A DNA stretch of 64,000 bases from Prostheceraeus crozeri (lineage: Eukaryota; Platyhelminthes; Polycladida; Euryleptidae), in the NCBI GenBank assembly GCA_907163375.1, contig CAJQUW010009006.1, positions 1-64,000 on the forward strand, given 5' to 3'. Positions within the stretch are counted from its first letter, which is position 1, and every line of letters begins with the position of its first letter. The position numbers and the translations under genes were made by a program. Of this stretch, positions 22,521 through 41,458 are shown piece by piece. The notes below the pieces were generated by a model that did no database searches, had not been told where the DNA came from, and saw only the letters and a program-made list of their open reading frames with translations.

Positions 22521-22532
22521 GATGACGTTACT

Positions 22533-23044: not shown

Positions 23045-23054
23045 TCAACTTAAT

Positions 23055-23429: not shown

Positions 23430-23556
23430 ACGTTATGAGAACCATGAGTTCTACCTGTCTCTATTAATGAGACGAATTGATGAATGGAATGAAATGGGAG
23501 GACACTCACGCGCCACACGCAACATAACACACTTCTCTCTTCCGTAGTCTAACAAG

Positions 23557-23940: not shown

Positions 23941-23995
23941 AGCCCCGTTCAAGTAAGTCAGTATGAAAGCAAAGATAATACGAAATAAAAATTTA

Positions 23996-24442
23996 TTATG
24001 GCATGTATTTCAAAAGGTCTTCATCGTCAATATCGTCCCAGAGTCTGGCTTCACATAGATAACAAAAACAGTTCACTTGCTTTAATCGTTCTTCCACTGC
24101 GAGCCTCACTTTGTCGATATACTCCCACTCCGCCATAGTTCGTGGCTGGGAGTTAGGGGTGTACCACTCCCATAATTGGTGGAGGAATTTGGTGCTGGTG
24201 ATCTCCATCACATCGTCAGTATCGTACTGGAGATACTTCCACCTCACGCCTGTTAAGTCGGGACACTCCTTCTCACATACACTCTCTTCGTCGTCCGCTG
24301 GTAATGACAACTTTCCGATATTGTCCAGTCGGTACACCTTCTCTACCTTCCCCTTCGTTGGAGCGTTTGGTGCAACGAGCGCCTTTGGTGTTGAGCATGG
24401 AGAAGAGAATTTTGTGTTTGGTGTTGTCGGAGGGCTTGTCAT
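23996..24442 (-). CDS. Polinton protein of unknown function, 148 aa
   Basis: Begins with a Ser/Thr/Pro-rich tail (MTSPPTTPNTKFSS), followed by an acidic central region and an aromatic segment (LHQLWEWYTPNSQPRTMAEW). The C-terminus has a CFCYLC cluster and an acidic end (DDIDDEDLL). No domain is recognised. An AATAAA overlaps the stop codon. The gene is divergent from polB; the 257-bp gap carries a TATA-like tatata (24540-24545) and CCAAT boxes usable in both directions, so the two genes may be co-regulated. Confidence 0.6.
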   Translation of the reverse strand: MTSPPTTPNTKFSSPCSTPKALVAPNAPTKGKVEKVYRLDNIGKLSLPADDEESVCEKECPDLTGVRWKYLQYDTDDVMEITSTKFLHQLWEWYTPNSQPRTMAEWEYIDKVRLAVEERLKQVNCFCYLCEARLWDDIDDEDLLKYMP

Positions 24443-24504
24443 GTTGACTGTGAATAATAACTTTGAAATGTTTTCTAATTCTTAAGTATCAACAAGCAAC
24501 CAAT

Positions 24505-24550
24505 CAGAATGAACAGCCAATGAATGATGAATATGAAAGTATATATGTAA
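24505..24550. promoter_or_regulatory. Bidirectional promoter between the 148-aa gene and polB
   Basis: Contains caaccaatcag and gccaatgaatg (CCAAT-type boxes) and gtatatatgtaaag (24539-24552), a TATA-like element readable on either strand. The polB ATG is at 24700 and the 148-aa ATG at 24442. Confidence 0.5.
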
Positions 24551-24702
24551 AGTGACATTCGTGTCATTTCACTCTGTCTTTGTGACATATAAGTGAAGTG
24601 TTCTCTGACGAATTCTATATTTGAGGCGTACAAGTGAACTGCTCTCTCGTGAAGTCTCTATCTTGTTGAAGTATCAACCTTAAACTCGATTTCGTTGAAA
24701 TG

Positions 24703-24769
24703 GTAAGTTGAAAATTTCTTCACTCATCTCCCTCAAACGTGTGGCTAATAGCATCTTCCTCAATTTCAG
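24703..24769 (+). other. Predicted intron 1 of polB (67 bp)
   Basis: gtaagt donor immediately after the ATG, and a caatttcag acceptor. The start codon is alone in its exon. The 235-aa gene at the other end of the element has an intron of the same length in the same position (40636-40702). Confidence 0.7.
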
Positions 24770-24830
24770 GCATCAACTTCATCACCAACGCCCTCCCTTC
24801 TCGAGGAAAGTTTAGAGTTGTTGAGTCAAA

Positions 24831-24889
24831 GTAGGTTGTAACAATACACTGAGACTTGAACAGAGATGATAGAATGATTTCTCTTTCAG
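24831..24889 (+). other. Predicted intron 2 of polB (59 bp)
   Basis: gtaggt donor and tttctctttcag acceptor. Removing it joins exon 2 to the frame with the first zinc finger. Without splicing, the next possible start is an ATG at 24874 inside the intron, giving a different N-terminus. Confidence 0.65.
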
Positions 24890-27800
24890 GTGATGCGAGT
24901 TCCAGCTCAGGACCCTCGCGACAAGGCAACGAGTGGGAATGTGCCGACTGCGGACATATGTTTACAAGGAAGCAAAGTCTCCTTCGACACATCAAACAAC
25001 GTGTGTGTCAACGCAAAGCGGCGTCAATCTCCGGAGGTGAAGTTGATTCTGACGATGACATCTCCTTTCCTTGCGATTTGTGCCCTCTTTCTTTTGATAG
25101 TCACTTTCAGCGATCTTCGCACAGACTTCAACACACGCATGCAAATGATCACTACACCAACGGTACCTCTACCATCTCCCTCATTAATGTTTCACATAAT
25201 AATTTAGTACGCGACTACTGCATGGAGTCCAATACTCAAATAGTAGATTTTCCTGAGTGGCTCCTTCAAAATTCTAACATTATCGAAGCGCTCTTCAACA
25301 ATTTAGACAATTTTAGAATGAAGGCGCTCATCTACCTTAAACTAAAATATATTAAGATAGATTTTCAAACGGGTCAAGTGACGGAGAGAATACAGTTTCA
25401 TGTTCCTTCCTCTTCCGCAACCGAAGTTGTAGACTGCGAGTCTTGGCTAAATTTTCACATTCAATGTTTAAAATCAAATGTAGATAAATTCAATCAACGT
25501 GACAGCGCTCTCATTTTTGATGGTGTGGACTCAGCCATATTCAAAATTTCCCTATTAGAAAGTCATGCAGCTCGAGGCACATTTAAACTACCAAAAACGT
25601 TGTATAATAAGAAAGCTGTCATCAATGTCGATTGTAAATCACAGTGTTTCAAATATGCAGTCCTATCCATCCTTCACTATAATGATATCAACGCGCACCG
25701 AGATCGCACCTATAGCTATAGACAGTGGGAGGATGAACTAGACTTTGAAGGTTGTGATAGTAACAACATGAAAATCAAAGATGTAGAAACGTTCGAAAAA
25801 CATAATAAGATTAAAATTGTCGTTCACGTGTGGGAGAAGGGGTTGAAGGGTGCCCGCTATAATTCACGTTCAACTTGTTATGAACGTGTAGTCAACCTCT
25901 TATTAGTAAAACAAGATGATAGCGAGGAATGCCACTACTGTGGTATACCCAAAATCTCTCGCTTGTACACTCACTTGGGGCACTCTAAAAGAGGTGAACA
26001 TTTTGTATGCGACCGCTGCATCCGCTCCTTTCGGAGTAAAGATAAATTTGAAACTCACTATGAATGGTGCAAACGAGGTAAATTTCAAATGGAACGCATG
26101 CCCAAAGATAAAATATTTTCACATAGGGATAATGGTGACGAATTAAGTCCACTGCGTGTCATTTACGCAGACATAGAATGCTACATTGATGATATCATCC
26201 ACAAGCCAGCAGCCATATCCTGCTATGAAGTATGGCATGACCACTTTAAGAATAGACAAAACAAAATGCATACTTGGCAAGGTGAAGATTGCATTTCAAA
26301 ATTTCTAGAATTTCTCGATAAAGCTGCTAAATTTCAACAATCATATGATTCCCAATTGCAGCGTAAGTCACTACATATGTCAGATGAAGACAAACAAAAA
26401 TTTGAAAGTTGCACATCGTGCCCTAAATGTCATAAAACGTTTGATGACGATAAAATTAAGAAAGTGCGTGATCATGATCACATCACTGGTAAATTTAGAA
26501 ACGCACTCTGCTCCAAATGTAACTTTTCACTTAGGTTGAGACGTCGTGTACTACCCGTCATTTTTCATAACTTTAAGGGCTATGACAGTCATATGCTCAT
26601 AAAAGGAGGGTTGAGCCAGATGAAATCGTGGCAGTTTAATGTAATAGCGCAAACGAGAGAAAAATTCATGGCAATGACAGCAAAAGTACCAGTAGATAAA
26701 ACTAAAGAAAATAAGACAGTCTTCTTCGAAATAAAATTTTTAGATTCATTCCAATTCATGTCAGCGTCACTAGTTTCTCTCGTTCGTAATCTCAAGTTTC
26801 TTCCCCATAGTCAAACTTTGAAGAAACATTATCCAAACTTAAGGGATGAAATAATCACACGCAAAGGAGTCTTTCCTTATGCGTATTTTAGCTCAATGTC
26901 TAAACTAAATGAAACAATCCTTCCTTCCATTGACAAATTCCAAAACGATTTGACGGTTGAAGATTGTCCAGTAGAAGATTATGAACATGCTCAAGAGGCA
27001 TGGTTAAAATTTGATTGTAAAACGTTTGGCGATTATATGATCGCTTACTTAGAATTAGATGTCATTTTGCCGCCTGATGTCTTTCAGGAATTTCGACGAG
27101 TGGCATTAGAAGAAGACAAATTAGATCCTGTCCACTTTGTCAGTCTACCAGCCATGTCCTTTAAATCAGCCTTTAAAATGACTGGTGAGACCATTCATCT
27201 CTTACAAGACCCCGAGATGTATAATATATTTGAGCGCGGAATACGCGGTGGTCTCACATTTGTAAATAAACATCATATAAAATCTGAAACAGTAGGTGAT
27301 AATCATATCCTCCTAAAGTACTATGACCAAAATAATTTATATGGCAGTTCACTGTCTAAACCACTACCTCATTCCGAGTTTAGTTGGTTAAATCAAGATG
27401 AGCTTGAGTATTACTCCAACCCTTAAAACATACTGAAGATTCCAGATGAAGGTGATTGGGGATATTATTTTGAAGTGGATTTGATTTATCCAAATAGCAT
27501 TAAAAATAAAACTGCTGATTTCCCACTCGCACCTGAATCTGGTGAAGTGACTGAAGATATGTTTTCACCATTCATGTCACAATTTCATAATAACTTAACA
27601 GTGTGTGGACAGCCAAGGTACAAACCATGCCGCAAACTTTTACTCACCCAATATGATAAGAAAAATTATCTCGTACACTTCTGCATACTAAAATTCTATT
27701 TAGAAATGGGCATGCTTCTAAAGTCAGTTCACCGCATTATCAAATTTAGACAGAAAGCCTTCCTCAAACCCTACATAGATAGTAACAGTCAAAAACGTGC

Positions 27801-28823
27801 ACTCGCCCAAATAATTTTTAAAAGGATTTTTATAAATATAAGAATAACAGTCTTTTCGGAAAGACCATGGAGGATGTTAGAAAACGTATGAACTACAAAC
27901 TGGTCGTTGATGAACAAAAATATCACAAATTGCCCTCATCACCTCTTTTCATTGATAGAGACATCATCGATGAGGATCTTGTAGGTGTTAAAATGATAAA
28001 ATCAGAAGTTGAGTTGTGCAAACCCATCTATATTGGGAAAGCCGTTTTAGATTATTCCAAGCTTGAAATGTATCAACTCTTCTACAAAATATTAAAACCA
28101 TGCCCTCTCGTAAAAGAGGTTCACTTGCTGGGTGGTGATACAGATAGTTTCTTTTTAGGAATTACCACTCAAAAAGATTTAAATTTTAATGAAGTAGGTA
28201 AGTCATTAGAAAAATATTTCGACACATCTAACTACAATCCCACTCATCCACTCTATTCCATACAGAATAAAGCCAAACTTGGTTGTTTTAAGGATGAAAC
28301 AGCAGGAAAGGAAATAGATGAAATGGTTCTCCTCCGTCCTAAAATGTATTCCATGAAATTAAAAGAATGTGCAGATAGTATTAAGCGTGCTAAAGGTATA
28401 TCAAAATCCATTGTTCACAAAATGAAACATCGGTCCTATAAGAAGGCCTATAAAAATAAAACTATAACGTTTGTCAATATGACAATCTTAAAATCTCAAG
28501 TTCATACTGTGAAAACGCACATGTTCAAGAAACGAGCGCTTTCAGCATGGGAGGATAAGAGGTGTTGGATAGGACATAACACATCTCTTCCACATGGACA
28601 TCCTGACACAAACATACCTCCACCCAAAAGAATAAAACTCACGCTACCACATTCAGGAGATGTATTGACATAATCAACTTTAACTCAGTATTTTGATGTT
28701 GCTTTTTGTAGATATACATGGTTGTTTTATGTATCGCATGAGATCGTTTCTTCCTTGTGAATATATGCCTACAGTCAGCCCATTCCCCCTTTATCTGTGA
28801 AAAGACTTTTTCATACACATATT

Positions 28824-28837
28824 TTTATTTCAATAAA
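28824..28837. terminator. Overlapping poly(A) signals of convergent genes
   Basis: aataaa at 28832-28837 serves the plus-strand polymerase gene, and tttatt at 28824-28829 (AATAAA on the minus strand) serves the virion gene ending at 28853. The two signals are two bases apart. Confidence 0.6.
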
Positions 28838-28852
28838 CATATCACAATGACT

Positions 28853-30411
28853 TCACTTTGTTTTCCGAAACACTAAAGTTACGAGAGATTTAGTATCTTT
28901 CACATGGATGCACTCTTGTAAACCATTGGTAATTTTGATAGCAATAGAGGGTATAGTTTGTTTGACGACGGGATGATAGAAAATAGATTCAAACATCTTC
29001 TCGACTATTCCATATGAAGCGTCTTTATCATGAATGAAATCACGTAAAATGTATTCTTTTTTCTCGCCAACAGAAATAGGTAGAATCAAATCACTTTGAA
29101 TGTAAAGGTGCTGTTCATGTTTATCAAATGTCATTGGTGTTTCTATACCAATCGTATGCGCAGCAGTAAACACAGTTTGTAGCATTGAAAAACCAAAGAG
29201 TTTTTTCAAATTTTTACTCAATTGACATTGAATGTCATCGCCCAGTTTCAGAACAACGCGTTGATTTTCAATTGAAAACGAAATGTGGTGTGTCTTTACA
29301 TCATATTTACTTTTCATCACATGCTTCAACTTCTGTTGTATATAAGGATTTACTACATGAATGAAGCTTTCAACTGTATGATATAGACGCGGCATTATAT
29401 TGATTGCAACTTTAGATTCTTCATAAGACTGGTAAATTTTCTTGATGCGATCACCATAGATGTCCACCCACCATTCATCATTAACTGAATCAGCTTTAGT
29501 GTGATATTCATGAGAAGCATACACCAGACCGCTTCCAATAATAGGTGTATAATGTCTTACAAAATGACGCAAGGTTGGAGAGAAATAAACTGTAAGTTTG
29601 TCATTATATTTCTGAATAACCAACTTATTTTTGTCCGCCATAATTTTCTCTCCATACTTCTTACCCACAGTCTCATCCCATCGTTTACTAACTCAATAAG
29701 TGATAAAGGTTGAACACCACGGTTTTTCAAAATGATGCGTTCTTCGCATTCTACAACATCTTCATCAAATATTTCAAATTTATAATGAAATTTGTTGATT
29801 CGATTTGAATAAACTTTTTTAACATTTGCAGTAGCAATTGACGTTAGATGTAGTCCATGACCAAAACCAAGATGTGGATAGAATTCATTATCCAACCTCA
29901 GTGTAAGACCTTTAGTAAAAGAATGAAAGCGAAGGAACTGTCTCCCACTCCAATGATAGATAGTAAACTCATAAGCTTTCTGATTTTTATTCTTCATGAT
30001 GGAAGTATTACCACTATTGAATGCCTTAATAATTTTCTCATTCCCAAATGGTTCATAAGAATCTGATTTTATCTGAATCCATTCATAGTTCCACTTTCCA
30101 TCTGATGTTAAATTGTATGGGAACTGGAATGCATTATTCATCGTTATTCCATCATGGGTGCGAGGAGTCAATATCATTTCTTCCAAATCATTCACATTCT
30201 GAATATTGCTATCATAGCAAATACTAGAAACGCCAACCTCCCATTCACCTTCTAAATGTAGTGGGCGATTTAATTCTACTCGATAGTCTGATGGTTTATT
30301 TTTGGGAAATTTATTCATAGAAGCATTACTGGGCAAGTAGATTAGAAACGAGTCCTTATTTTCACTTTCCATATTATTCACATTGGAAAATATATTAGCA
30401 TACTTTTGCAT
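28853..30411 (-). pseudogene. Virion-type protein B, paralogue of 30411-31808, frameshifted
   Basis: Two overlapping frames make one gene of about 520 codons: the 5' part (30411 to about 29690) and the 3' part (about 29690 to 28853), whose open frame has only a GTG at its head, so it is a continuation and not a separate gene. The N-terminal module, FLIYLPSNASMNKFPKNK then LEGEWEVGVSSI, matches the module in the upstream neighbour (HILLSNAATKRFASNR, LNGKWEVGVTQL). Downstream, LRHFVRHYT pairs with FLRHHS of the neighbour. ATG at 30411 overlaps the neighbour's stop (TAATG), but the ATG at residue 14 fits the paralogue better. Such proteins accompany capsid genes in Polintons; a penton/fibre or other minor virion role is inference. 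Confidence 0.7.
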
Positions 30412-31808
30412 TAACTCTTCATTCGGAAATGGAGTGTGATACTTGTCACAGCATCTTTATGAAAAGGAATCAACGCACCAGCATCGTCATAAATGGCAAT
30501 ATCAATTTGTGGGATGTAGTTTGATTTCAGCTTTGTATAATGCACTTTCTTGAAAGTATGCTCAGATAAAATACTGCAGCTTTTTGGCTGGTATGGTATC
30601 ATTGCTAGCAATGGAGCTTCAACATCTCCCACACGTACATCTTCACCAATATTGGAATATATCTGAAAATAGTTAATACGACGCGATGGCGACATGTCTG
30701 CGCTAGCTTTGGTTACAGTACCACTTTTAAAGATATTTTGATCAAAACCCAAAATGTCCATTAGAGTTTTATCCATAATTAGTTCAATACCTTTTCCACT
30801 TATAGTGAGAGACAAAACACCTTCTTTTTCAGAAAATAAAATATGTTGCTTATTAATCACTTCATTTAAATAATCTACAACCAATTTAACCGAAGTAATA
30901 ATGCGAGGCATCAACACTCTTGTTTCATGTAAGATACCACCGAAAGGCTCTACACACTTTCTGTATAAAGATACGGTCCATTCTGTATCAAATTGATTTG
31001 ACCTTTCACATGGTAAATGTTGCATATCAAATTTTCCATGAACAGCTGCAGAATGATGTCGTAAGAACTGATGAAAATCTTTTGAACAAACTAATACTAG
31101 ATCATCATCATTTAATTTACTTATTGCAATAGGATTAGATGATTTGATATAAGTCAATGTTGCCACTTGTTTACCATCAACTCGAAGGAGATAATTAAAT
31201 TTCTTCAATAATGTTTCAGGAGTCATGTTTGTCTTTCTTGGCTTAATCACAATCTTCTTCACCAACGTCTTCTCATTTCTTGGAATAAGATCTACATAAT
31301 AAGCTTCCTCTCGATATATTAACTGTTTATGACCACTTATGTGGTAATTAACATTAAAATTATCATAGCTTGTTAAGGCGCTAGCGAGGTAACCTAAATC
31401 ATTTCTTAAACTTGGACTTAAACCAACAATCCAATCTTTCTCAACTACATGATGTACATAATTATGATCATCATTGTGCGGAGTAAATTGGACAATATGT
31501 TTACACGCTTTATTCAAGAAATCATACATAAACTTTTTAAATGATAAGAGATCTTTCTTTGCCCACTGTGGAATGTATACTCGGCAGCCCTTTTCACATT
31601 GGTAAGCAGCTGTGCGTCTCATATTAATAGTCATCACCTCATGATCAAAAGTATAGACACAGTTGATATAAACAAGTTGAGTGACACCCACTTCCCACTT
31701 TCCATTTAGCTGTTGTGTATAATCAATGGGAGTAGAAAAGAGTGCGGCTCGATTACTAGCAAATCTCTTTGTAGCCGCATTGCTAAGCAAAATATGATAA
31801 AACGACAT
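30411..31808 (-). CDS. Virion-type protein A, 465 aa
   Basis: Intact ORF. The N-terminal module MSFYHILLSNAATKRF ... LNGKWEVGVTQLVY is shared with the downstream paralogue. The C-terminal part contains LMDILGFDQN, VEAPLLAMIPY, LKSNYIPQIDIAIYDDAG and VTSITLHF, a run of predicted beta strands. No signal peptide or membrane segment is seen. I recognise the overall pattern as a conserved Polinton/adintovirus-type protein next to capsid genes, but its exact virion role (penton, fibre, assembly) is not established here. It starts 23-35 bp from the divergent plus-strand gene, and its stop codon overlaps the next ATG by one base. Confidence 0.75.
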   Translation of the reverse strand: MSFYHILLSNAATKRFASNRAALFSTPIDYTQQLNGKWEVGVTQLVYINCVYTFDHEVMTINMRRTAAYQCEKGCRVYIPQWAKKDLLSFKKFMYDFLNKACKHIVQFTPHNDDHNYVHHVVEKDWIVGLSPSLRNDLGYLASALTSYDNFNVNYHISGHKQLIYREEAYYVDLIPRNEKTLVKKIVIKPRKTNMTPETLLKKFNYLLRVDGKQVATLTYIKSSNPIAISKLNDDDLVLVCSKDFHQFLRHHSAAVHGKFDMQHLPCERSNQFDTEWTVSLYRKCVEPFGGILHETRVLMPRIITSVKLVVDYLNEVINKQHILFSEKEGVLSLTISGKGIELIMDKTLMDILGFDQNIFKSGTVTKASADMSPSRRINYFQIYSNIGEDVRVGDVEAPLLAMIPYQPKSCSILSEHTFKKVHYTKLKSNYIPQIDIAIYDDAGALIPFHKDAVTSITLHFRMKS

Positions 31809-31843
31809 TTTGATATTGCTGATCTGCGACTTTGCATAACATC
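31809..31843. promoter_or_regulatory. Minimal divergent promoter
   Basis: Only 35 bp separate the minus-strand ATG (31808) from the plus-strand ATG (31844) that aligns with its paralogue. There is no TATA box. On the minus strand it contains atgcaaagt about 20 bp before the ATG; the same atgcaaagt occurs 30-40 bp before the minus-strand gene at 35308. The motif may be a shared late-gene element, or an octamer-like site. Confidence 0.4.
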
Positions 31844-32200
31844 ATGAAGACTTGGATTTTGGACTCTCTACAATATATCAGAGTTGATCGTGATGGAAAC
31901 GTACATTTCAAAAATTCTCATGGTCATACATCAAGAGGTATTACATTAACATGGCGACAATTTGTCAACCTCAATGATATCATGAGGGATTTCGAATATT
32001 TTGAAACATTAAGATTCATCTCCTTGGGTGATCAAGTTTGGCTTCAACATTACAGAAATGAAATTCAAATCTACCATTCTCATTCCGCAAACTGTTTCTC
32101 ATTTCGCAAATACAATTGGGAGAAGTATAGAAGATACATACATCGCTCCATCATGACATTTATTCGTCGTGAGTTCATCGCGCTACTATGCAAATCTTAA
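31844..32200 (+). CDS. Small paralogous protein 1 (possible PC4-like fold), 118 aa
   Basis: Begins MKTWILDSLQYIRVDRDGN; an ATG four codons upstream (31832) is also possible. It aligns along its whole length with the next gene: W.LDSLQ.I, D.. NV.FK, a helix with RDFEYF versus KDLKYF, then IQIYHS and a WEKYRRYIHRSI versus WEKYKRKVHRSI end. The pattern is two repeats of beta strands followed by a helix, each with an aromatic. That resembles the single-stranded DNA-binding PC4/p15 fold, but similarity is too weak to assign by eye. It lies upstream of a TBP-like gene, in keeping with a transcription role (inference). Confidence 0.6.
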   Translation: MKTWILDSLQYIRVDRDGNVHFKNSHGHTSRGITLTWRQFVNLNDIMRDFEYFETLRFISLGDQVWLQHYRNEIQIYHSHSANCFSFRKYNWEKYRRYIHRSIMTFIRREFIALLCKS

Positions 32201-32222
32201 TCAGACATGACTACCACGCACC

Positions 32223-32549
32223 ATGAGTTGGAAATTAGATTCCCTACAACGTATTGAAACGGATCATGATCGAAACGTCTATTTCAAAGATTCAACTGGA
32301 AATGTGAGAAGAGAGTTTGCTTTATCTTATCGTCATTTTCAATCTTTACATCATATCATGAAGGATTTGAAATACTTCTATATGAAAAGACATTCACGTA
32401 TTGGAAATCGCATCTGGCTGCGCGTCAACAAACGGCGAATTCAACTCTATCATTCCCAACTTCATACTAACTTCACATTTCATCAAGGTAGTTGGGAAAA
32501 GTATAAAAGGAAGGTACATCGCTCAATTTACTCATTTTTTTCATCATGA
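32223..32549 (+). CDS. Small paralogous protein 2 (possible PC4-like fold), 108 aa
   Basis: Tandem paralogue of the gene at 31844: MSWKLDSLQRIETDHDRN ... HHIMKDLKYF ... RRIQLYHSQL ... WEKYKRKVHRSIYSF. The protein is basic. The gap to the upstream gene is 22 bp, and its TGA stop overlaps the ATG of the TBP-like gene (ATGA at 32546-32549). Sequence divergence from its twin is large, so the duplication is old and both copies have been kept. Confidence 0.6.
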   Translation: MSWKLDSLQRIETDHDRNVYFKDSTGNVRREFALSYRHFQSLHHIMKDLKYFYMKRHSRIGNRIWLRVNKRRIQLYHSQLHTNFTFHQGSWEKYKRKVHRSIYSFFSS

Positions 32550-33086
32550 AGCGCCATCGCTACACCATCGTCAACATTCTCCGTCGCTTCAGACTCTACA
32601 CCAAAATCGATCTCACAACATTACACCAACACCTTCCAAACAGCAAGTACTAACCGTCCTCAAATGTTAGTGGTGAAGATGAACAATTCACGGAATCTTC
32701 AACTCTTCCCAAATGGGACTGTACAGATTCTCGGCGCCCTTTCTCATCCATCGGAGCAGTCAATGCGCTTAGAGCTACAGAGACTACTACGTCGGATATG
32801 GAAGAGGGAGAGGTGTGTGATGTCGAATCTGACTGTGGACAATATGGTGATCTCTACTCAATTGAGTGAAAGTGTATCATTTTTGAAGATTCGTACCAGC
32901 AGTTACAATTTGTGTTATGAACCCGAACTTTTTCCTGCAGCTCTCATTAGTTGTTGGTTACCTGTGCATGTGGCAATCTTTCATAATAGTAAAGTGATCA
33001 TTACTGGACTAAAATCTCACGTACAAGCAAATGTGATCCTAGACTATCTCATCGAGTATGTACGCACCCAGCGGATTGTAAAATAA
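32546..33086 (+). pseudogene. TATA-binding-protein-like protein, frameshifted
   Basis: Two frames together span 180 codons, the length of the conserved TBP core. Frame 1 (32546-32653): YTIVNILRRFRLYTKIDL resembles the first strand and helix of TBP repeat 1. Frame 2 (from about 32650, ATG 32664, to 33086) continues with LVVKMNNSRNLQLFPNGT and GALS, then repeat 2 with SNLTVDNMVIST, YEPELFPAALI and VAIFHNSKVIITGLKS. TBP has NMVGS, YEPELFPGLIYRM and LLIFVSGKVVLTGAK at these places. Three of the four DNA-kinking Phe positions are kept (LFPNG, ELFPA, AIFHN); the first is replaced in QMLVV. A one-base indel near 32650 breaks the frame. An AATAAA overlaps the stop. It probably acts in the nucleus on the element's own promoters (inference). 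Confidence 0.85.
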
Positions 33087-33118
33087 AAAACAATTTTTTC
33101 CAACATGATGTTTTTATT
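33082..33118. terminator. Convergent poly(A) signals
   Basis: aataaa at 33082-33087 overlaps the stop of the TBP-like gene; tttatt at 33113-33118 is AATAAA on the minus strand and overlaps the protease stop codon at 33114. The two gene ends are 27 bp apart. Confidence 0.65.
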
Positions 33119-33575
33119 TCAAATCATGATAGAACTTACAAATCATTTTTTCATTAGAGGATGGATTACATGAAAAGTTTTGAATAACAGATACAAATCG
33201 AGATACATGTAAACGTTTTAAGATGAAGTACAGTACAAAAGCACCACACGTTGATGAAAGTGGATGTTGTAGTATGCGTTCATTTCGCTGATATTGACGC
33301 GTATGTTTTCTCAACCACTGCTGTGTTGGTATATTTGGAGGTTGAGCAAGAGAGTCAAATAGTTCACCACGTCGGTCTTCTCCAATAAAGATCGCTTTCC
33401 AATGCTCACCGCGTAAATTCTGCGAATGAGTGCTTAGCACAATAAAGATGGGATAGTGATTTACTGCAGGTGGTAAGGTATCGAGTGAATAGACATTATC
33501 GAAAGCTTTCAACGTCGTTTCGTCTGCATTACGCTGCACTTTAGTTTTAATATCGTCAGCAGTCAACCAACTCAT
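33114..33575 (-). CDS. Adenain-like cysteine protease, 153 aa
   Basis: Capsid maturation protease of the adenovirus/Polinton type (family C5-like fold). Catalytic pattern in order: His in LRGEHWKAIFIG (about residue 58), Asp in GELFDSLAQPP (about 74), Gln in ILQHPLSS (about 103) and Cys in STCGAFVLYF (about 110). Length is short but usual for Polintons. ATG overlaps the stop of the capsid gene by one base (TAATG), so translation is probably coupled. Intact. Confidence 0.85.
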   Translation of the reverse strand: MSWLTADDIKTKVQRNADETTLKAFDNVYSLDTLPPAVNHYPIFIVLSTHSQNLRGEHWKAIFIGEDRRGELFDSLAQPPNIPTQQWLRKHTRQYQRNERILQHPLSSTCGAFVLYFILKRLHVSRFVSVIQNFSCNPSSNEKMICKFYHDLK

Positions 33576-34850
33576 TAACGATTATACTGAAGAATCACGT
33601 CACGATACTTTGTAATTTCAATATTTGAATCGAAGACTGCATAAATTAATACATTGATCGTCTCAGGTAGTGTTCTTTTGAACGTCAAATCCAAACGAAT
33701 ATTATGAGGCACGTTCGCTTGACGATAGGGTGCACTAATATCGCTGTCAGCAGTCAAATCAAATGCATAAATAGTATATCCACTCTTAAACTCTTTCATA
33801 GTCAGTCCGTTGGTGTCATCCGTATTGTAAAAGCCAAAGACATCCATAAAATCAACATAACTGCGCATAAATTGATCCGAAGCAAAATCTGGTTTGTAGG
33901 GTGGACCAGGATGACTCACACCATTTACACGTAAAGCAATTTCACTTAACTGATTGTGTTTAAAATTGAAAGGATTCTTCTTTATATTACCATTAAATGC
34001 ATCATTTTCAACCATTGCCACCATGAGGAGCTTCGGTGCTTCCGATGCAAAGAGGCCATCTTTCATGAAACTCTTTTGATCTTTCGGAATTGTAAAGGTG
34101 AGAAGCTTTGTATGCTGAACGGGGTAAATGGCATTTTGGCGGTTAAGACCTTCAGCATGCCCTCTAATGACACTTGGATTCGGTACTACTCGACGAATGT
34201 AAAGTGCAATATCTTCCACATGAATTCTAAAATTGTCAACTTTAGCAAATGCATTCAGCGCAAATTCAGGCTTATTCAATGTCAGCTTGAGTCGCATGCT
34301 GGTATTACAGAGTAAAAACTTTTGACTGTCTAAAGAAGTCTAAATTCAGCGGACCATATAGCTGACATACTTTACTATCTTTAATCATAGCAGATCGCTT
34401 TACAAAGCCACTGTTTGTTTCAACATCAAATTTTCCTGCTTCATCTCTGTACCATCCCATGGCTTCCATGACTTTTTGTGCTGCTGGATGAAACTGTGAT
34501 ACATGATTGAAATATGATTTATAGGGATAATCGCTTTGACCACCTTCCACCTGATGCTCTCCAATCGTTAGAGAAACATCGCGAAGTAATGTAGTCAATG
34601 GTAAATTGTTCAGTCCAACTTTATGTGCATCGTCAATAGCAGTTCCATCTGCTTGCTGAATTCTAAACCTCAAATCAACCATCGCATAACTCAAATCTAT
34701 GTAGTCATCACTACCACCAGGAATAACAAATTCAATGGAGCCAGCATTCTCAGCTGTTCGAGGATGATAATCTACAATACTTGAACTAAGAATATCTGTC
34801 TGTATGGCATGTTGATCAAACAAACAAAACCCGGAAGTTTTACACTCCAT
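33575..34850 (-). pseudogene. Double-jelly-roll capsid protein, frameshifted
   Basis: Two consecutive frames (34850-34305 and 34297-33575) form one gene of about 425 codons. The N-terminal part has SIVDYHPRTAENAGSIEFV then GGSDDYIDLSYAMVDLRFRI and LLRDVSLTIGEHQVEGG. The C-terminal part has FTIPKDQKSFM, KNPFNFKHNQLSEIALRVNG and GYTIYAFDLTAD. This is the widespread invertebrate F54H12.2-like family found in Polintons, which I read as the jelly-roll major capsid protein; assignment as major rather than minor capsid protein is less certain. The break is one base, at or near an A5 run (34314-34318 on the plus strand), with no other damage, so the gene may be only recently broken or mis-sequenced. 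Confidence 0.75.
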
Positions 34851-34852
34851 AA

Positions 34853-35308
34853 TTAGAAGTTATGGCAGCGTCGTCGTTTAGCGCCTGATGAATGATTAGA
34901 GCCTCTGCGACGTTTGCGTGAATGCCTTTTGACTGAAGATCGCACCTTACCAGCTCCGCGATGTTTCCTCCTTCCTTTTTTCATTCGTTTAGGTGATTTC
35001 TTTCCTTGAGTAACACCAGCAAAGGTCTGCTTCAATGTTTTTAAACCGCGTTCCTTCCCACGATTCAACAAACTGCTCTTAAGACTTCTACCTCTGGAAA
35101 GATCACTAGCAACATCACCAGCAAAGCCAACGGCATTACTTAAAACATTTCGTTTTAAAGATCTTCCGACATTGGATATGAGAGGTGCTACAACAGATTT
35201 CAGTGCACCAAGTATGCTACCTCCACGTTGGCGGCGAGCGCCGATGTAAATTTGTCCTCCACCACTTACATAGGAGGGTCGTGAATAAAGTGAGGCAGTT
35301 GGATTCAT
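34853..35308 (-). CDS. Basic core-type virion protein, 151 aa
   Basis: Very basic: the C-terminal third is almost entirely Lys/Arg (KRMKKGRRKHRG, KRHSRKRRRGS). The N-terminal part has Gly-Gly sites that could be cut by the adenain-like protease (SGGGQIYIG, RQRGGSILG), followed by an amphipathic segment LGALKSVVAPLISNVGRSL. This layout recalls adenovirus minor core/cement precursors (pVI/pVII type) but may be convergent. The stop is two bases before the capsid ATG (TAATTATG). DNA condensation or membrane-lytic roles are inference. Confidence 0.7.
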   Translation of the reverse strand: MNPTASLYSRPSYVSGGGQIYIGARRQRGGSILGALKSVVAPLISNVGRSLKRNVLSNAVGFAGDVASDLSRGRSLKSSLLNRGKERGLKTLKQTFAGVTQGKKSPKRMKKGRRKHRGAGKVRSSVKRHSRKRRRGSNHSSGAKRRRCHNF

Positions 35309-35349
35309 AGCTCAAACCCTAAACATTGTTAGTTACAACTTTGCATGAA

Positions 35350-36614
35350 TCACTGTCGATCACTTAGATGAAAGATGTCGGCACGACGCATCCAAGAGTT
35401 CATACTTGAAGGATAACCAGTCCATTTAACAAGACGCCATTCTTCACCTTGCCGTTTTTTACATCGAATGATTTTCTCTACCAAATATGTTTCACTTTCA
35501 GTGACTACCTCAATCTCATCGCGGTAAAAGCTACCCTCAATTTCTTCATTATCGTAATCTTTCAACTTGTAGGTGGTCGGAGAGTCTTTTTGATTAATCC
35601 TTGATACTGTAAATACCTCCTCTGTCCAATTGGGAAGGTACCCTTTAGCAAAAACACTTCACTTTTGAGATACGAACTTTATCACCAATTTTCACATCAC
35701 TTTTCACATGAGTGCGTTTACGTTGGAATGATTCGCGCACTTTATCTACATTGTCAGCATTTACATCTACTGGTCTGAGTCCAATAGAACGATGGATAGA
35801 GTGATTGTAGGCATGGAGTGTATCTTGTAGAACCTTTGTCCAATTTTGTGTCAAGTTGGCAGTGAAATGTCGCCACAAGCGATTTTTTAATGTGCGATTA
35901 AAACGTTCAACGAGTGCAGCTTTATAAACACTCTTTATACTAAACAACTCAATGTCATGCCTCTCAAATAATCTTCTCACATGCTGATTTTCAAACTCTT
36001 TTCCTTGATCACTCTGAATTCTTTTTGGAATGCGACCTTCTCGAAAAATTGTTTGGAATGCTTTTGCTACTCCTTTCCCTTCTTTAGTTTTTAAAGGTTG
36101 AGCACACGCATAACGCGAGAAAATATCAATGACGGTTAAAATAAAATTATTGCCCGAGTTATGTTTTGAAATGGAGGCAACATCACACAAATCTGCTTGC
36201 CACTGTTCATCGATGTCATGAACAATATAATGGCGGGTGCGGTACTTCTTTTTCGCTTGTTTGTGGAGTGTATAGGTAGCCTGACCCTTTAACCATCGTT
36301 TCACTTGTGATTGTGGAAGACCACTCGCTTTTGATAATTTCTTGATAGATGCAAATCCTGCCGGATGTTTTACATCATAATAGATTGACTTCAAACGTTC
36401 AGTCGATGACGACTGACTCTTTTTTCTCCTTCTCATCTTTTTGTTTTCTTGCCTTTCTACATTTACAACAACTGCAGCATTTAGCTTTAGCGGTTTTGCG
36501 ATCGTGGTCACATTGCTTAGGGGTTTCATTGTGAGAGCTGGCGCAGCAAGTGCAAGTGACAACGACATTCACCTCTGGCGGCTCATTACATGGCAAGCAA
36601 CACTTCTGCTTCAT
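35350..36614 (-). pseudogene. int: DDE integrase with Cys-rich N-terminus and chromodomain, frameshifted
   Basis: Inserts the element with 6-bp target duplication. Core: QWQADLCDV (first Asp), IQSDQGKEFEN (second Asp) and ALVERFNRTLKN (Glu), with 33 residues between the second Asp and Glu. C-terminal chromodomain at 35565-35350: YLVEKIIRCKKRQ then WRLVKWTGYPSSMNSW. Upstream, a Cys-rich frame (36614-36399; CCLPC, CTCC, CCSCCKCRKARK) begins three bases after the previous stop and is likely the zinc-binding N-terminus. It is joined to the core only through a frame change near a T6 run (36420-36425), while the ATG at 36568 in the core frame gives an unlikely N-terminus. A second one-base break lies at an A5 run (35650-35654). 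The Cys-rich piece could instead be a separate overlapping gene. Confidence 0.85.
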
Positions 36615-36615
36615 A

Positions 36616-37308
36616 TTAATAGTCTGAGAACATGTATTTCCTGGGAGGAGCTGTTTTACGTTTTCCTTTTACTAGTTTTAGTGGTGATGTAGATCTACGT
36701 CGAGTTCTTCCTCTTGTTTGCTTAGTGAGTGTGGGAGGGGATGTAGCAGGTGACGTCTTAAACCAATTTGTTGGCATTTTCATCGTCTGAAGCATTGGAG
36801 CAGTAGCCACTGTTGAATCAAGTTCTTTCAATGTCTCATTATTCAAAGCAAATTTTGGCACATTATGCTTTTTCAATAGTTTAATAAAGTATGACCAACC
36901 AGGTGGAACATAGCCCTGACGGCGCTTTCTACGTGTCGCATACTGAATCAAGTCTTTATAACGTGAAGCATCAATCACTTTATTTTCATCTGTAATGATT
37001 TCTCCTCTATCATTTACATTGAGATGGGGTTCAATACTGTTGAAAAAAGATATGGCATGTGCGCGAGATGCTAAAGGTGTAGCAGTCTATACAGAGTCAC
37101 GCATCTTATTCTTCAAGTTTTTCAATTGCTCAACAGTTTCCGATTGTAATAATACAGCACGATGTGGATCTTTGATGTGAACATTTTGCTGATAATCTAT
37201 TTCTTTCCTATACATTTGATTTGCAAGAGGTTGCTTTACTTGCTGCATGGCAGTCAATTGTACATATTCATCCTGAGGAATAACAATCATGCGAGAATAA
37301 GAACTCAT
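36616..37308 (-). pseudogene. Conserved Polinton protein, 230 codons with internal TAG
   Basis: The frame from ATG 37308 (SSYSRMIVIPQDEYVQL) is stopped by TAG at 37087-37089 but continues open in the same frame to 36616, with NDRGEIITDENKVIDASRY, YVPPGWSYFIKLLKKHNVP and a basic C-terminus. The two halves match the layout of a conserved protein I associate with Polintons (an N-terminal IPxxxYxxL segment, a coiled region, a C-terminal DLI...Gw..F...L...NvP region); its function is unknown. ATGA overlaps the ATPase stop at 37305-37308. Either a nonsense mutation or stop-codon readthrough would explain it; mutation is more likely given the other breaks. Confidence 0.65.
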
Positions 37309-37970
37309 AGTTTGTAGATAATCATGGGAGTTTTCAAAATATCACTTCGAAATCTAAATTCTTCCGGACACTCTTGCGTAAAGTCAATGAATAAGTAACC
37401 GTATGGTTTTTCAGTAGCTGCTTGAAAAATTTCAATTAAGGCTTTTGATCCTCTGGGTGCAACTTGTCGCGCTAAAATTTCAAATTCACTTTTATCTCGC
37501 GGATTCTTGAAAATAGCATAATAGTGTGTATTCAGGTTTCGTGTACGAGCTTCTTTTCCATCAGGAAACCAATTTTGTGTGATATAGATGATAAAGCACC
37601 TTTTATGATGTGCTGCACGAGTGAACATATCTGTAACATCTTTTGAATTCTTACTTTCTTTTAATAAATCATCCAATACAACAACATCATTAGACTGAAG
37701 TTTATCCACTGGAATAATTCCTTCATGTCGAATAAAGTTGCGACTTTGCAATTCCTGAAACAGCGACGGTTGATAAATACCATAACACCAAATCACTCGA
37801 TTGATAGGTTCCTTAAACAACTCCCTTCTTTTATCCAATAAATTCAGCGTGAAAACAGTTTTACCTGCATGAGATGGACCTGATACAGTCAGAACTTTAT
37901 CACATTGAAGTCTGAAATCCGTTATAATACTTTGAGATTCAACATTTGCATAATTAACGCTTAGAGCCAA
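37305..37970 (-). CDS. Genome-packaging ATPase (FtsK/HerA, A32-like), 221 aa
   Basis: P-loop motor that pumps DNA into capsids. Walker A GPSHAGKTVF (about residues 31-40), Walker B DVVVLDDLL (about 94-102), and the following YITQNWF motif (about 128-135) with the polar Gln/Asn expected in the A32-like family. Intact and of normal length for Polintons. The start overlaps the end of the upstream basic protein gene by 17 bp, and the stop overlaps the next ATG. Diagnostic for a capsid-forming element. Confidence 0.9.
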   Translation of the reverse strand: MALSVNYANVESQSIITDFRLQCDKVLTVSGPSHAGKTVFTLNLLDKRRELFKEPINRVIWCYGIYQPSLFQELQSRNFIRHEGIIPVDKLQSNDVVVLDDLLKESKNSKDVTDMFTRAAHHKRCFIIYITQNWFPDGKEARTRNLNTHYYAIFKNPRDKSEFEILARQVAPRGSKALIEIFQAATEKPYGYLFIDFTQECPEEFRFRSDILKTPMIIYKL

Positions 37971-38319
37971 AGATATTACCCAATAGGTTGCCCACGACAG
38001 GAGCTAACATTGGAAGTATTGCTGAAAGGAAACCGCCCTTTTGTGTTAGAGTTTTCCTCTTTCTTTGAAGGGTGACTTTAGGATTGGAGATGAAACGCAA
38101 TTTTGTGGCATATCGCTTAAGTAACTTTCGTTGTTTTGGCGCTAATTTCTTCGTCCTCAACTTTCTGACATGAGAAATAATTTCACGAATGAATTTATCG
38201 TTGGCATGTCGTATAGCATTGTATCGCTGATTTGCTTTCATTCGTCGGAGAGCTTGAATGGCTGAAGAAAACTTTGAAGACTTTTGACTTTTACGTTTCG
38301 CCATTTTACGTTTCGCCAT
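37954..38319 (-). CDS. Basic protein with hydrophobic C-terminus, 121 aa
   Basis: The N-terminal three quarters is strongly basic and helical (RRMKANQRYNAIRHANDKF). It ends in QKGGFLSAILPMLAPVVG then NLLGNIFGSKR. The Gly-Gly before a hydrophobic segment resembles an adenain cleavage site that would release an amphipathic or membrane-active peptide, as in adenovirus minor virion precursors; that role is inference. The pattern is common in Polintons next to the ATPase. A duplicated MAKRK at the start suggests a small recent duplication. Intact. Confidence 0.75.
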   Translation of the reverse strand: MAKRKMAKRKSQKSSKFSSAIQALRRMKANQRYNAIRHANDKFIREIISHVRKLRTKKLAPKQRKLLKRYATKLRFISNPKVTLQRKRKTLTQKGGFLSAILPMLAPVVGNLLGNIFGSKR

Positions 38320-38369
38320 TTTCCGTGTTAGTCTTTGCTAAACCTATCTTTACCACATTTGCATAGGTA

Positions 38370-38693
38370 CTAACTATTGCGACATAAGTGACACTCGAAA
38401 TGAGCAATATCACAGTGGTTACATTTGCAAAGTTGAATGCAATTACGTATGAAACAGCGTTGACAAAAAGCGTGCTTACATCTCTTGAAGATGCGCTTTT
38501 CATTTCCATCCTTTCGCTTACATACATCACAACACATAGTTTCACCGTTACTAATGTCTATAGCAAGTCTTTTTGAAGATATGAATTTGCTAGCCTTTTC
38601 TAAATAATAGACGCATGTACAGAAGGAATATACTTCGAGAGTGAGCAGACATAGCTCGAAAACCAGTTGTGCTACAATCAAGTACCACTGCAT
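38370..38693 (-). CDS. RING-like zinc protein with N-terminal membrane segment, 107 aa
   Basis: ATG at 38693 (five bases after the upstream gene's TGA starts) is preferred over the in-frame TTG at 38699. A hydrophobic N-terminus (WYLIVAQLVFELCLLTLEV) is a likely membrane anchor. The rest is a Cys/His array: CCDVCKRK, FKRCKHAFCQRCFIRN, CKCNHCDIAHFECHLC, close to a RING (C3HC4-type) ligase domain. A membrane-bound E3 ubiquitin ligase acting on host proteins is the family-based guess. A second, shorter RING-like ORF is at 39771-39896. Confidence 0.65.
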   Translation of the reverse strand: MQWYLIVAQLVFELCLLTLEVYSFCTCVYYLEKASKFISSKRLAIDISNGETMCCDVCKRKDGNEKRIFKRCKHAFCQRCFIRNCIQLCKCNHCDIAHFECHLCRNS

Positions 38694-38695
38694 TT

Positions 38696-39106
38696 TCAAT
38701 TTTTCTTTATGGAAAGTTGAATGTGAATATCTGAAATCGCTTCAATCACTAGACTGCTACCATGATGGTTAAATGCGTTAAGACGTTCAGCAATTTTTAT
38801 CATATGTCTTTTAAAAAATTCTTCGGGGTGATCTACCACTTCCATTGAATAAGAAGCAAAATGGAAAGAGCGACTTTCCACCTCTTCCTTTCCAAAATGA
38901 CTAAACTTAATTTTCGCAACTAATCGCGCAATGATAATGCTATCAGAGAATGTATTCATTAACTCTAGAAATAGAGTGCTAGCATCATCGACCACTGCTT
39001 CGATGTCGCTCTCATCTTTATGAAAATTTATCACATAATCTTGAACAGCTCCTTTTAAACTTTGCCTATGAAAATGTAATGTTCCGCAGTCGTTTGAGAA
39101 AGACAT
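38696..39106 (-). CDS. Conserved Polinton-type protein, 136 aa
   Basis: Begins MSFSNDCGTLHFHRQSLK and contains FFKRHMIKIAERLNAFNHHGSSLVIEAI then DIHIQLSI. This layout (helical segment, GS, then two beta strands) resembles a domain I know from proteins encoded with or fused to transposon family B polymerases, where it often precedes zinc fingers. That recollection is not strong, and the function is unknown. It is intact and closely followed by the RING-like gene. Confidence 0.55.
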   Translation of the reverse strand: MSFSNDCGTLHFHRQSLKGAVQDYVINFHKDESDIEAVVDDASTLFLELMNTFSDSIIIARLVAKIKFSHFGKEEVESRSFHFASYSMEVVDHPEEFFKRHMIKIAERLNAFNHHGSSLVIEAISDIHIQLSIKKN

Positions 39107-39190
39107 GATCGCCCTTTATCTAACCCATCCATTGCATGAAAACAACTCTTCTCATAGTAACATTTATTGAATAATAGTAACAAGCATGCA

Positions 39191-39721
39191 TTATAAATCA
39201 ATGGTTTGAAAGAGATAAAATAGATACAGCTGGTAACTATCATACAGCGAGCAATGATAACCATACAGGACTTTGGCAGTGCTGAGGTAAGGAGGAAAGA
39301 AGCATTGGTTATGAACGTAGCTACTACAACGAACAGACAAAATAGGAACAGACAAATCCTTAAAACGTTTCGTGACTTCATGATAATGTTGATTCACTCT
39401 ACTATCCCAAGGTGGGAGCAAAATATCATCAATGATTAGATTGGGAAATACTTTCCTCTCCTTACCAGGATTATTACAAAAGATGCGTATAACATTGAAA
39501 GCAGCTAACCATCGTTTAAAATCAATAAGAAGAGCACTCTCACAAGAAAAGCCATAGTCTTGCAAATATTTCAGATTAAGTCCATGAATGTGTTTTCTCG
39601 CCCATTGATCAACATTGGGATTGCAGTTGGCATGTTGATGATAGACACTGACAATCTGATATGTCCAATTGTTCATAGCAATAGCACTGAGCTCCTGTAC
39701 AGGTTCACCCTCACAATCCAT
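39191..39721 (-). CDS. DEDD-type exonuclease-like protein, 176 aa
   Basis: Starts at an ATG inside the first nuclease strand: upstream bases gcttctatcattttt extend the same frame (ASIIF) back to a ttttag acceptor-like site, so a 5' exon may be missing. Motifs: MDCEGEPVQELSAIAM (Exo I, Asp-x-Glu), RKHIHGLNLKYL, an Asp in LLIDFKRWLAAF, and a C-terminal YHCSLYDSYQLYLFYL (Exo III-like His...Asp). Together they fit a 3'-5' exonuclease of RNase H-like fold. It may proofread or process ends for polB, or act in host interference; both are inference. Confidence 0.6.
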   Translation of the reverse strand: MDCEGEPVQELSAIAMNNWTYQIVSVYHQHANCNPNVDQWARKHIHGLNLKYLQDYGFSCESALLIDFKRWLAAFNVIRIFCNNPGKERKVFPNLIIDDILLPPWDSRVNQHYHEVTKRFKDLSVPILSVRCSSYVHNQCFFPPYLSTAKVLYGYHCSLYDSYQLYLFYLFQTIDL

Positions 39722-39770
39722 AAAAATGATAGAAGCCTAAAACGGAAATTTACACATCTAAGGAAACGTT

Positions 39771-39896
39771 CTATAACATATTACAAAATGAAGAATTAAA
39801 TCGATGCTTTTCACGACAAAATACACAAATGATATGATGGCAACGAAGAAGTAAAATGTATCTAATAAGACCACGTCTACGACACTCAAAGCACAT
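39771..39896 (-). CDS. Short RING-like ORF, 41 aa
   Basis: From ATG 39896: MCFECRRRGLIRY then LLRCHHIICVFCREKH, i.e. the first half of a RING-like pattern (CxxC...CxHxxCxxC), followed by an early stop. It lies 35 bp downstream of the 235-aa gene's stop. It may be a truncated paralogue of the gene at 38370, or an exon spliced to something downstream. Confidence 0.4.
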   Translation of the reverse strand: MCFECRRRGLIRYILLLRCHHIICVFCREKHRFNSSFCNML

Positions 39897-39930
39897 AAGC
39901 AAATTGTCATAGGGTAGAGTTAGGAAAGGA

Positions 39931-40705
39931 CTAGTAATTCTCCTTCTTTGATTTGCGTTTTGATGCAGCATTCTTCTCCGACTTGGGCTTCGTACCACTG
40001 CTGTTAAGGATTTGATCAATTATGTCGTCCACGTTGGGTGGTTTTGGAATATATAGGATGGATTCCATATGCATGGAGAGAGAGGCTATCTTATTATCCT
40101 TGTGACGACCATAATTTAGCCCATTCACTTTGAAAAGGATATCCCAAGTACCTTCTCCGAGCTCGTCGCATGTGATGGGTGTTGAATGATCTCCCTCCTT
40201 CTTATAGTAAGTGCACCAATGTGATACCGGTAGGCAAATTTGATTACCATCCCAAATCTTTCTATAGGGAGTATCCTTGTCATCTCTCGCCTTCCACTCT
40301 TGAGCAAGAGGAGTGGGAATGTCCATATTTAATGTCACGTACTCCTCAATAATATCAAGTTGGTGGCGAATGTACGGACTCACGGGGATCAGTATGTAGT
40401 CCCCATACTGATTGTGCATTATCTTGACATCCGTGGAAGGGAGCATTCCCGTTTGGAGTACTACGCTATGATCGTCATAACGCAAGACTTGTTTAAATTT
40501 ACGCTGTAGCGGTGTAGGATTATGTACCTTGGTTGTTTCTTCCACTGGCCTCAGTTGTAGATGATCTGATCGTAGCGAACCTTGTAACGTTTGACCGCCA
40601 TTTTGTCCTACTAGTGCAGCAGATGGAGTAGATGCCTGAAAATGAAAAAGATTGTATTAAGTTTACGTTCAAGGGAGGAGAGGGAGGAAAGTAGCGACTT
40701 ACCAT
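39931..40705 (-). CDS. Spliced Polinton protein, 235 aa, unknown function
   Basis: ATG at 40705-40703 stands alone; intron 40702-40636 (67 bp, gtaagt...tttcag); exon 2 runs from 40635 to the stop at 39931 in one open frame. The unspliced ATG frame stops soon. Body: IMHNQYGDYILIPVSPYI, ELGEGTWDILFKVNGLNYG, KIASLSMHMESILYIPKPP, a basic Lys/Arg tail. The central strands and hydrophobic pattern would fit an OB-fold ssDNA-binding protein or another all-beta protein, but no signature proves it. It has its own TATA box (40805-40816). The exon-1 layout copies that of polB at the other end of the element, suggesting both belong to one expression class. Confidence 0.65.
40636..40702 (-). other. Predicted intron directly after the start codon (67 bp)
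   Basis: On the minus strand the donor ATG|gtaagtcgct and acceptor ttttcattttcag|gcatct. It has the same length and position as polB intron 1, and both are followed by gcatc, giving Met-Ala-Ser at the start of both proteins. Confidence 0.7.
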
Positions 40706-40804
40706 TTTAGTTGGATAATAGAATAGGGAACTAGAGAGAGAGAAAATGTGCGTCCGTCACTCGTGTGATTCAACGATGGAATGATTCTCACTGTGGAAGG
40801 CTCG

Positions 40805-40816
40805 CTATTTATATAG
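40805..40816 (-). promoter_or_regulatory. TATA box of the 235-aa gene
   Basis: ctatataaatag on the minus strand, about 100 bp upstream of the ATG at 40705. A CCAAT box (atccaatgag on the minus strand, near 40830) lies just upstream, as in the polB promoter region. Confidence 0.6.
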
Positions 40817-40859
40817 AAATGCTTGATTCTCATTGGATGATGATCCTCATTGGACAATA

Positions 40860-41458
40860 ACATCAAGCTGATTCCAAATCTGGCCTCCGTTTACCAATCC
40901 GAGCCTTCATTCGCCCGCTGGAGCTGTTTCTTGTGAAATTCTAACTCTGTCGTTTTTCGTCAATCTCCCAAAATCTTAAATGGCGTCTCACATCTAAACG
41001 AAGACAGATATGAACAAGCCGATTCTTTCAGTGAATTTGTCTCACTCTTAGCTTTCAAACGAGCTATTGCACGACTTTCTACGATCTCTAGAACCAAAGT
41101 TGGAAGATCGGTGCCGGGGGGGGGGACGTCAGCGAAATTTTTTCTCTCCGATTGCTTTCAAATTCACCATACAGATGCAGAATTTCACGCTGAATCCGAA
41201 TCTGGCCTCCGTTTTCCCATCCGATGCCTCGTTTTGGCGCTACAGCCCAAAACGTCCTAAATTCTAACTCTGTCGTTTTTCGACAGTCTCCCAAAATCTT
41301 AAATGGCGCCTCACATCTAAACGAAGACAGATATGAACAAGCCGTTTCTTTCAGTGAATTTGTCTCACTCTTAGCTTTCAAACGAGCTATTGCACGACAA
41401 AATCCGTCCACTGGAAGGCAAGATCGAAGCTAGCTCTCCCGGGGGGTGGGGGTCCGTG
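40860..41458. repeat. Right subterminal repeats
   Basis: About one and a half copies of the unit found tandemly at 6690-8735 in the remnant, with gacagatatgaacaagccg, ctgaatccgaatctggcctc and a G-run with gacgtcag at 41116. ORFs here are shadows of the repeat. Confidence 0.7.

Follow-up and report, generated by a model that had tools for sequence, protein, structure and literature searches.

In published reports, TATA-binding proteins (TBPs) are described for three already known families of large dsDNA viruses and four more (PMC11410667) and for 59% of mirusvirus genomes (PMC10132985), and are mentioned where putative mirusvirus-origin elements without polymerase or double-jelly-roll capsid genes are treated (PMC10675990); ASFV is described as having its own RNA polymerase (PMC7458399, PMC10881513). 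Among the papers listed in literature searches, with subscription papers and the adintovirus description outside their scope, none reported a TBP in Polintons or adintoviruses.

Here, we analysed a 64,000-nucleotide stretch of the genome of the polyclad flatworm Prostheceraeus crozeri (the window; contig CAJQUW010009006.1) and found that positions 32546-33083 encode a TBP homologue within a 21.3-kb Polinton (Table 1).

Table 1. Features of the Polinton and its TBP region, in positions of the window
Feature	Position	Strand	Match or evidence
Polinton element, 21,348 bp, AG termini	20798..42145		TIRs + TSD
Target-site duplication TTCATG, left	20792..20797		perfect 6-bp TSD
Target-site duplication TTCATG, right	42146..42151		perfect 6-bp TSD
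Left terminal inverted repeat, composite with internal repeats	20798..21502		
Right terminal inverted repeat	41453..42145		
TATATAAA, 39 nt before ORF y3	22215..22222	+	
TATATAAG, 48 nt before ORF y2	22739..22746	+	
ATGCAA box, 39 nt before c2 start (placed by homology at the second Met)	30406..30411	-	
ATGCAA box, 29 nt before c3 start	31832..31837	-	
U1, paralogue of U2	31844..32200	+	
ATGCAA box, 35 nt before U2 start	32188..32193	+	
U2, PUR/PC4-like N-terminal fold; ends here in the window copy, elsewhere runs into TBP in another frame	32223..32549	+	
TATA box TATAAAAG of TBP gene	32502..32509	+	
Inr-like TCATT with its A at 32534, 32 nt downstream of first T of TATA box	32532..32536	+	
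TBP gene, first piece: opening part of repeat 1, ahead of frame break	32546..32650	+	PF00352 0.0082; family profile 2.7e-06
TBP gene, second piece: remainder of repeat 1, then repeat 2 and stop	32655..33086	+	PF00352 5.7e-11; family profile 6.8e-57
Protease, weak Ulp1-type match	33114..33581	-	E 0.0028, below curated cut-off
ATGCAA box, 38 nt before 'basic' ORF	35341..35346	-	
Integrase (rve)	35645..36568	-	PF00665 8.7e-11
ATGCAA box, 45 nt before ORF x1	38359..38364	-	
ATGCAA box, 31 nt before ORF x2	39132..39137	-	

The TBP gene, its carrier and an overlapping gene

Around the TBP gene we found terminal inverted repeats (TIRs), an AG terminus, a 6-bp target-site duplication (TSD) and a retroviral-type (rve) integrase, features of Polintons that agree with the original prediction of a TBP gene inside such an element. 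Other parts of the element are less distinct: an A32-like ATPase match (E 0.026) stayed below the curated Pfam cut-off, the first open stretch of the region of the putative protein-primed DNA polymerase B had no Pfam polymerase match (a putative DTDS motif was seen by eye in ORF 27822-28673), and two putative capsid ORFs, candidates for the double-jelly-roll major capsid protein, had no Pfam match either. The labels PolB, capsid, 'basic', c1-c3, x and y used here are assigned names and not search results. Rfam gave no match at the gathering threshold. The window copy is decayed, its polymerase and capsid regions each being broken up over frames. Aligned over 884 bases across U2 and TBP with the related copy L025, to which it is 97.4% identical there, it shows two internal length differences, near 32535 and 32652, which alter its U2 and TBP frames, respectively.

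Several further arrangements were observed. Capsid and protease each start directly at, or slightly within, the end of the ORF before them (window 33575 and 34850; copy L028 5568 and 6850), which suggests a polycistronic basic-capsid-protease message. The genes c3 and U1 are divergent, with about 36 nt between their start codons (window 31808-31844). On the minus strand, the adjoining ORFs 22421-23008 and 23055-23432 have the repeated stretch FKLTDSRFNLMIVFASPKTAQGKPRGGS in common, and two small Cys/His-rich ORFs (38370-38741 and 39771-40019) look RING-finger-like by eye.

The predicted two-repeat TBP-like protein with YEPELFPA, VAIFHNSKVIITG and LFPNGTVQILGA was borne out in its motifs and coordinates, and an HMM search upheld its homology to TBP. 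The second piece (32655-33083, frame 2, 143 aa) matches PF00352 significantly and in two stretches (42.5 bits, cut-off 22.9); the first piece (frame 1, 35 aa, then a stop) covers PF00352 positions 2-33 below the curated cut-off. Unbroken TBP copies match at 4.7e-22 or better, and the copies L025, L013 and L028 score 78.1, 78.4 and 83.1 bits, again in two stretches each. The best PDB sequence match of the second piece is the M. jannaschii TBP (3.5e-13); 35 of the 37 matches at E<=10 are TBPs or TBP fusions, counting one that carries only the name ECU04_1440; the two at the bottom of the list are not related to TBP. With a profile built from 88 relatives, only the two TBP pieces match in the window, the next E value being 0.57.

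The frame break near 32652 is specific to the window copy. In nine other copies of its family (family A) the TBP frame is unbroken and 181-188 aa long, and a programmed frameshift was rejected on this ground. The ATGA of the window was likewise rejected as a stop-start coupling between U2 and TBP: it results from the length difference near 32535 in this copy, and in other copies U continues.

Does the protein keep the architecture of a TBP? An AlphaFold2 model of the intact relative P0002 (18-row alignment) reached a pLDDT of 85.3, with residues 1-23 below 50, and in a fold search against the PDB it gave 44 matches at E<=0.001 to chains titled as TBPs or TBP fusions, the best at 1.7e-12 with a TM of 0.81 by target. 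The saddle fold asked for in the original prediction is therefore predicted, for a relative rather than for the broken window copy itself. Retention of three of the four DNA-bending phenylalanines turned out to be true of the whole family: F77, F152 and F168 (P0002 numbering) are invariant in 88/88 relatives of at least 150 aa, as are E150, P153 and A154, and the fourth DNA-inserting position is Pro in 86/88. We take these to be the DNA- and TFIIB-contact positions of TBP, and the nearly invariant EPELFPA to be the TFIIB-facing motif. Together, the three kept phenylalanines and the modelled saddle suggest that the protein may bind DNA.

The first half of TBP is shared, in a different reading frame, with a second gene, U (L025:4464-5111, L013:4233-4859, L028:4206-4802). 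This overlap is new here and was absent from the original prediction. FSF and SIE are retained across three element families. A fold search revealed a duplicated beta4-alpha fold as in the PUR-alpha/PC4 superfamily, and no PUR-alpha/PC4 sequence match appeared in Pfam or the PDB; we speak of a predicted fold similar to PUR-alpha/PC4, which makes U a candidate member of the superfamily at most. A Nudix identity of U2 was discarded, as the weak match (0.014) lay below cut-off and was not backed by the fold search.

Distribution and descent of the element TBP

Is the TBP gene confined to the window copy? The second piece as query retrieved 45 related proteins, and the profile search returned 430 relatives at E<=0.001, of which the best 120 were listed. 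Equal longest-contig figures of the U1/TBP relative pairs P0046/P0005 (12,876) and P0047/P0001 (1,771) suggest that relatives of both genes are paired on shared contigs. Contig scans of IMG/VR and GTDB found no relative, and INPHARED phages contained none. The genome from which the window comes (2.05 Gb in 14,165 contigs) yielded 10,984 candidates; all 150 that were scored lay above cut-off. Four of these rows belong to the host, namely to its TBP (C9306, two exons) and to a TBP-like gene (C3829, two rows), which leaves at least 146 element-type TBP places; the DNA of 29 of the 146 was inspected. With P0035 as query, 10,614 candidates were found and all 150 scored ones matched, 148 of them without an internal stop.

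The TBP gene is present in three diverged element families of this one genome, and unbroken TBPs are 41-55% identical between families. In family A (L019-L027, nine of 20 regions inspected), the order is c1-c2-c3 leftward, U1-U2-TBP rightward and protease-capsid-basic-integrase-ATPase leftward. (The family-A copy L026 departs from this order: its best capsid match, 8585-9838, is at a distance from the protease and has the opposite orientation to that in its sister copies.) Family C (L028 with L004, L005 and L007) is a second capsid-bearing family, whose best matches are 26-66% identical to the window proteins. A homologue at the same position in other elements, as the original prediction had proposed to look for, thus exists in families A and C, where TBP lies between the c-type paralogues and the protease. 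In family B (L009-L018), TBP adjoins x2-x4 and PolB. The inspected stretches of L009-L018 hold no capsid, integrase or ATPase homologue at E<=1e-4, and those of L013, L015, L018, L033 and L034 hold none at E<=1e-2. In these last five copies, also of family B, PolB, x-type ORFs, U and TBP are present. Family B may consist of reduced Polintons in which the U-TBP pair has been kept, or its missing genes may lie beyond the inspected stretches.

In a 90-row tree built from 82 database relatives of at least 165 aa, three own-genome copies and five cellular rows, the 85 element-type rows lie on one side and the five cellular rows on the other with support 100/100; the program warned that the cellular rows are attached by long branches. 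A recent capture of the element TBP from the host is excluded by this tree, whose long branches bear on the depth of origin. The host TBP-like row groups with the cellular TBPs, apart from the element TBPs, again on a long branch. In this host gene (L002, G000:C3829), which presumably resembles TRF2/TBPL1, YEPELHSG replaces YEPELFPG. Over 75 codons around repeat 2, pN/pS of the element TBP is 0.29 in family A (8 copies) and 0.44 in family B (10 copies), so amino-acid changes are rarer than silent changes among copies. A host retrocopy limited to the window copy, which had been named as an outcome that would speak against the idea, is contradicted by the at least 146 places and the separate clade.

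Two kinds of promoter signal

Upstream of the TBP gene, a script recognised the TATA box in 26 of 30 copies and missed it in L008, L011, L014 and L023, although in L008 it is visible by eye. The box reads exactly TATAAAAG in 22/30 copies and was not so recorded in 8/30. Counted from the first T of this box, the A of an Inr-like TCA lies 32 nt downstream in 25 of the 26 copies (33 nt in L004), and the TBP start lies 43, 44, 46 or 47 nt downstream. The same geometry can be read through translation of the upstream open frame: among database relatives with a readable upstream extension, I-K at codon -14 and H at codon -4 occur in 9/16 and are lacking in 7/16. Since the TATA box lies within the conserved U codons Y-K-R, protein constraint may account for part of this conservation. 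On sequence grounds, the TBP gene has a predicted TATA-Inr promoter with fixed 32-nt spacing and canonical geometry, which is new here.

A different box precedes other genes. We scored every 6-mer 22-52 nt upstream of predicted starts in two families, using 20 starts of family A (window 21601-41000) and nine of family C (L028); ATGCAA and AAGCAA had been noticed by eye prior to this ranking. In family A, ATGCAA ranks first of 3967 6-mers (6/20 starts, 0.18 expected, p 1.8e-8), and in family C, AAGCAA ranks first of 3547 (6/9 starts, 0.11 expected, p 3.4e-10). The first rank persists when c2 is taken at its first Met or left out (5 starts each; p 8.1e-7 and 6.1e-7, respectively), and for AAGCAA when MCPn, x6 and protease are left out (4/6; p 3.8e-7); two of the six family-C boxes, those of MCPn and x6, lie inside an upstream coding frame. 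In stretches shifted to 60-90 and 90-120 nt, the box count drops to 0 and 0 in family A and to 1 and 0 in family C. Within the tested stretch, each of the two families lacks the box of the other. Over the whole element no enrichment was seen, be it of ATGCAAA (4 against 3.3 expected), TTTGCAT (5 against 3.5), TATAAA (10 against 10.0) or TTTATA (9 against 10.4); the enrichment of the box is limited to its position relative to starts.

The box is absent from 14/20 family-A and 3/9 family-C starts. A TATAWA within 70 nt upstream occurs in family A only at TBP, y2 and y3, all three without an ATGCAA box, and in family C at TBP, protease and basic, the last of which carries both signals. The original prediction had proposed that the element may direct host RNA polymerase II, or a promoter class of its own, towards its TATA-bearing genes. 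A promoter class of its own fits the six family-A starts with a different box, and the emphasis on TATA-bearing genes fits less well, as these comprise only TBP and two small left-end ORFs. The distance from box to start is 29-47 nt. A box at 29-31 nt with a transcription start 30 nt further on would leave no leader, and the box may thus not be a TATA equivalent.

Possible roles and known systems

That the element-encoded diverged TBP acts as a putative element-specific promoter factor is, in our judgement, about evenly balanced, and we infer that its product would direct Pol II to element promoters. We envisage a two-step, early/late switch. Host TBP/TFIID and Pol II would transcribe the element TBP gene first, via its TATA box; the element TBP, with its altered saddle, would bind the A[T/A]GCAA box or adjacent DNA, and its retained ELFP stirrup would recruit host TFIIB and Pol II, with the U protein assisting at single-stranded or melting promoter DNA. 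Box binding by TBP is the weakest of these steps, given the variable distances and the position of some boxes very near the start codon, and all starts used in the promoter analysis are predictions. As family B keeps U and TBP and its inspected stretches hold no capsid, integrase or ATPase homologue, the role must reach beyond capsid genes. The fullest form of this proposal is tentative and may well fail: Polintons would use a promoter code of their own on host Pol II, in which a TBP with a re-shaped saddle reads a family-diverged box (ATGCAA/AAGCAA) with a PUR/PC4-like partner encoded in the overlapping frame, and a host-type TATA serves only as the switch-on.

It is conceivable, if rather unlikely, that a host factor of POU/octamer or C/EBP type recognises the A[T/A]GCAA box and that the element TBP acts elsewhere or only on TATA boxes. 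Three of the six family-A boxes read ATGCAAA(T/G) and resemble the octamer ATGCAAAT, which we take to be the POU/octamer site. However, a host reader would not need the box to differ between co-resident families, and in the tested stretch of family C, from the same genome, AAGCAA occurs and ATGCAA is absent.

The element TBP could also be a decoy that competes with host TBP for TFIIB, TFIIA or DNA and so damps host transcription or silencing, at no service to element promoters. The replacement of one DNA-inserting Phe by Pro beside a retained ELFP stirrup, the strong-looking host-type TATA promoter of the TBP gene and the retention of TBP in family B without capsid genes nearby would all suit such a shut-off. 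We nonetheless consider it unlikely, as the three retained Phe positions and the predicted saddle fold suggest DNA binding and the family-specific box would be left unexplained.

A role in replication or packaging rather than in transcription, by bending DNA at the ends or origins of the element, is improbable. TBP-fold proteins bend DNA and the gene is retained beside PolB in family B, yet the TFIIB-facing motif EPELFPA is nearly invariant. A captured host TBP copy without any role, which the broken window copy might bring to mind, hardly deserves consideration in view of the separate clade (100/100), the three element families that carry TBP, pN/pS below 1 and the invariant saddle residues.

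If the element-specific promoter factor holds, an abundant conserved TBP lineage in 21-kb Polintons, with an overlapping gene whose fold is of nucleic-acid-binding type and with two promoter classes, would make Polintons active in transcription initiation. It would offer a testable answer to how Polintons time their own genes, and a natural case of co-divergence of TBP and promoter box within one host.

How does the locus compare with known systems? With cellular TBPs, archaeal and eukaryotic (PF00352), the element TBP shares the two repeats, the predicted saddle, the ELFP stirrup and three of four DNA-inserting phenylalanines. It differs in being only 18-28% identical to the solved TBPs listed, in the Pro at the fourth position, in standing apart from the five cellular tree rows and in belonging to a mobile element in which a partner gene overlaps it. 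The animal TBP-related factors TRF2/TBPL1 and TRF3 are alternative TBPs serving subsets of promoters; the host TBP-like row falls with the cellular TBPs and the element TBPs fall apart from them (long branch). U differs from PUR-alpha, PC4 and Whirly in the missing sequence match and in an extra C-terminal part encoded in the TBP overlap. The TBPs of large DNA viruses (ASFV B263R and the mirusvirus TBP), considered here by their published description, are likewise virus-encoded and belong to large genomes, in contrast to a 21-kb element among whose 10 ORFs scanned against Pfam no RNA polymerase match was found. With Polinton/Maverick elements and adintoviruses, the window element shares its TIRs, 6-bp TSD and integrase. 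Virus-encoded TBPs as such were already known; the predicted TATA-Inr promoter, the overlapping U gene and the family-specific box are what this locus adds.
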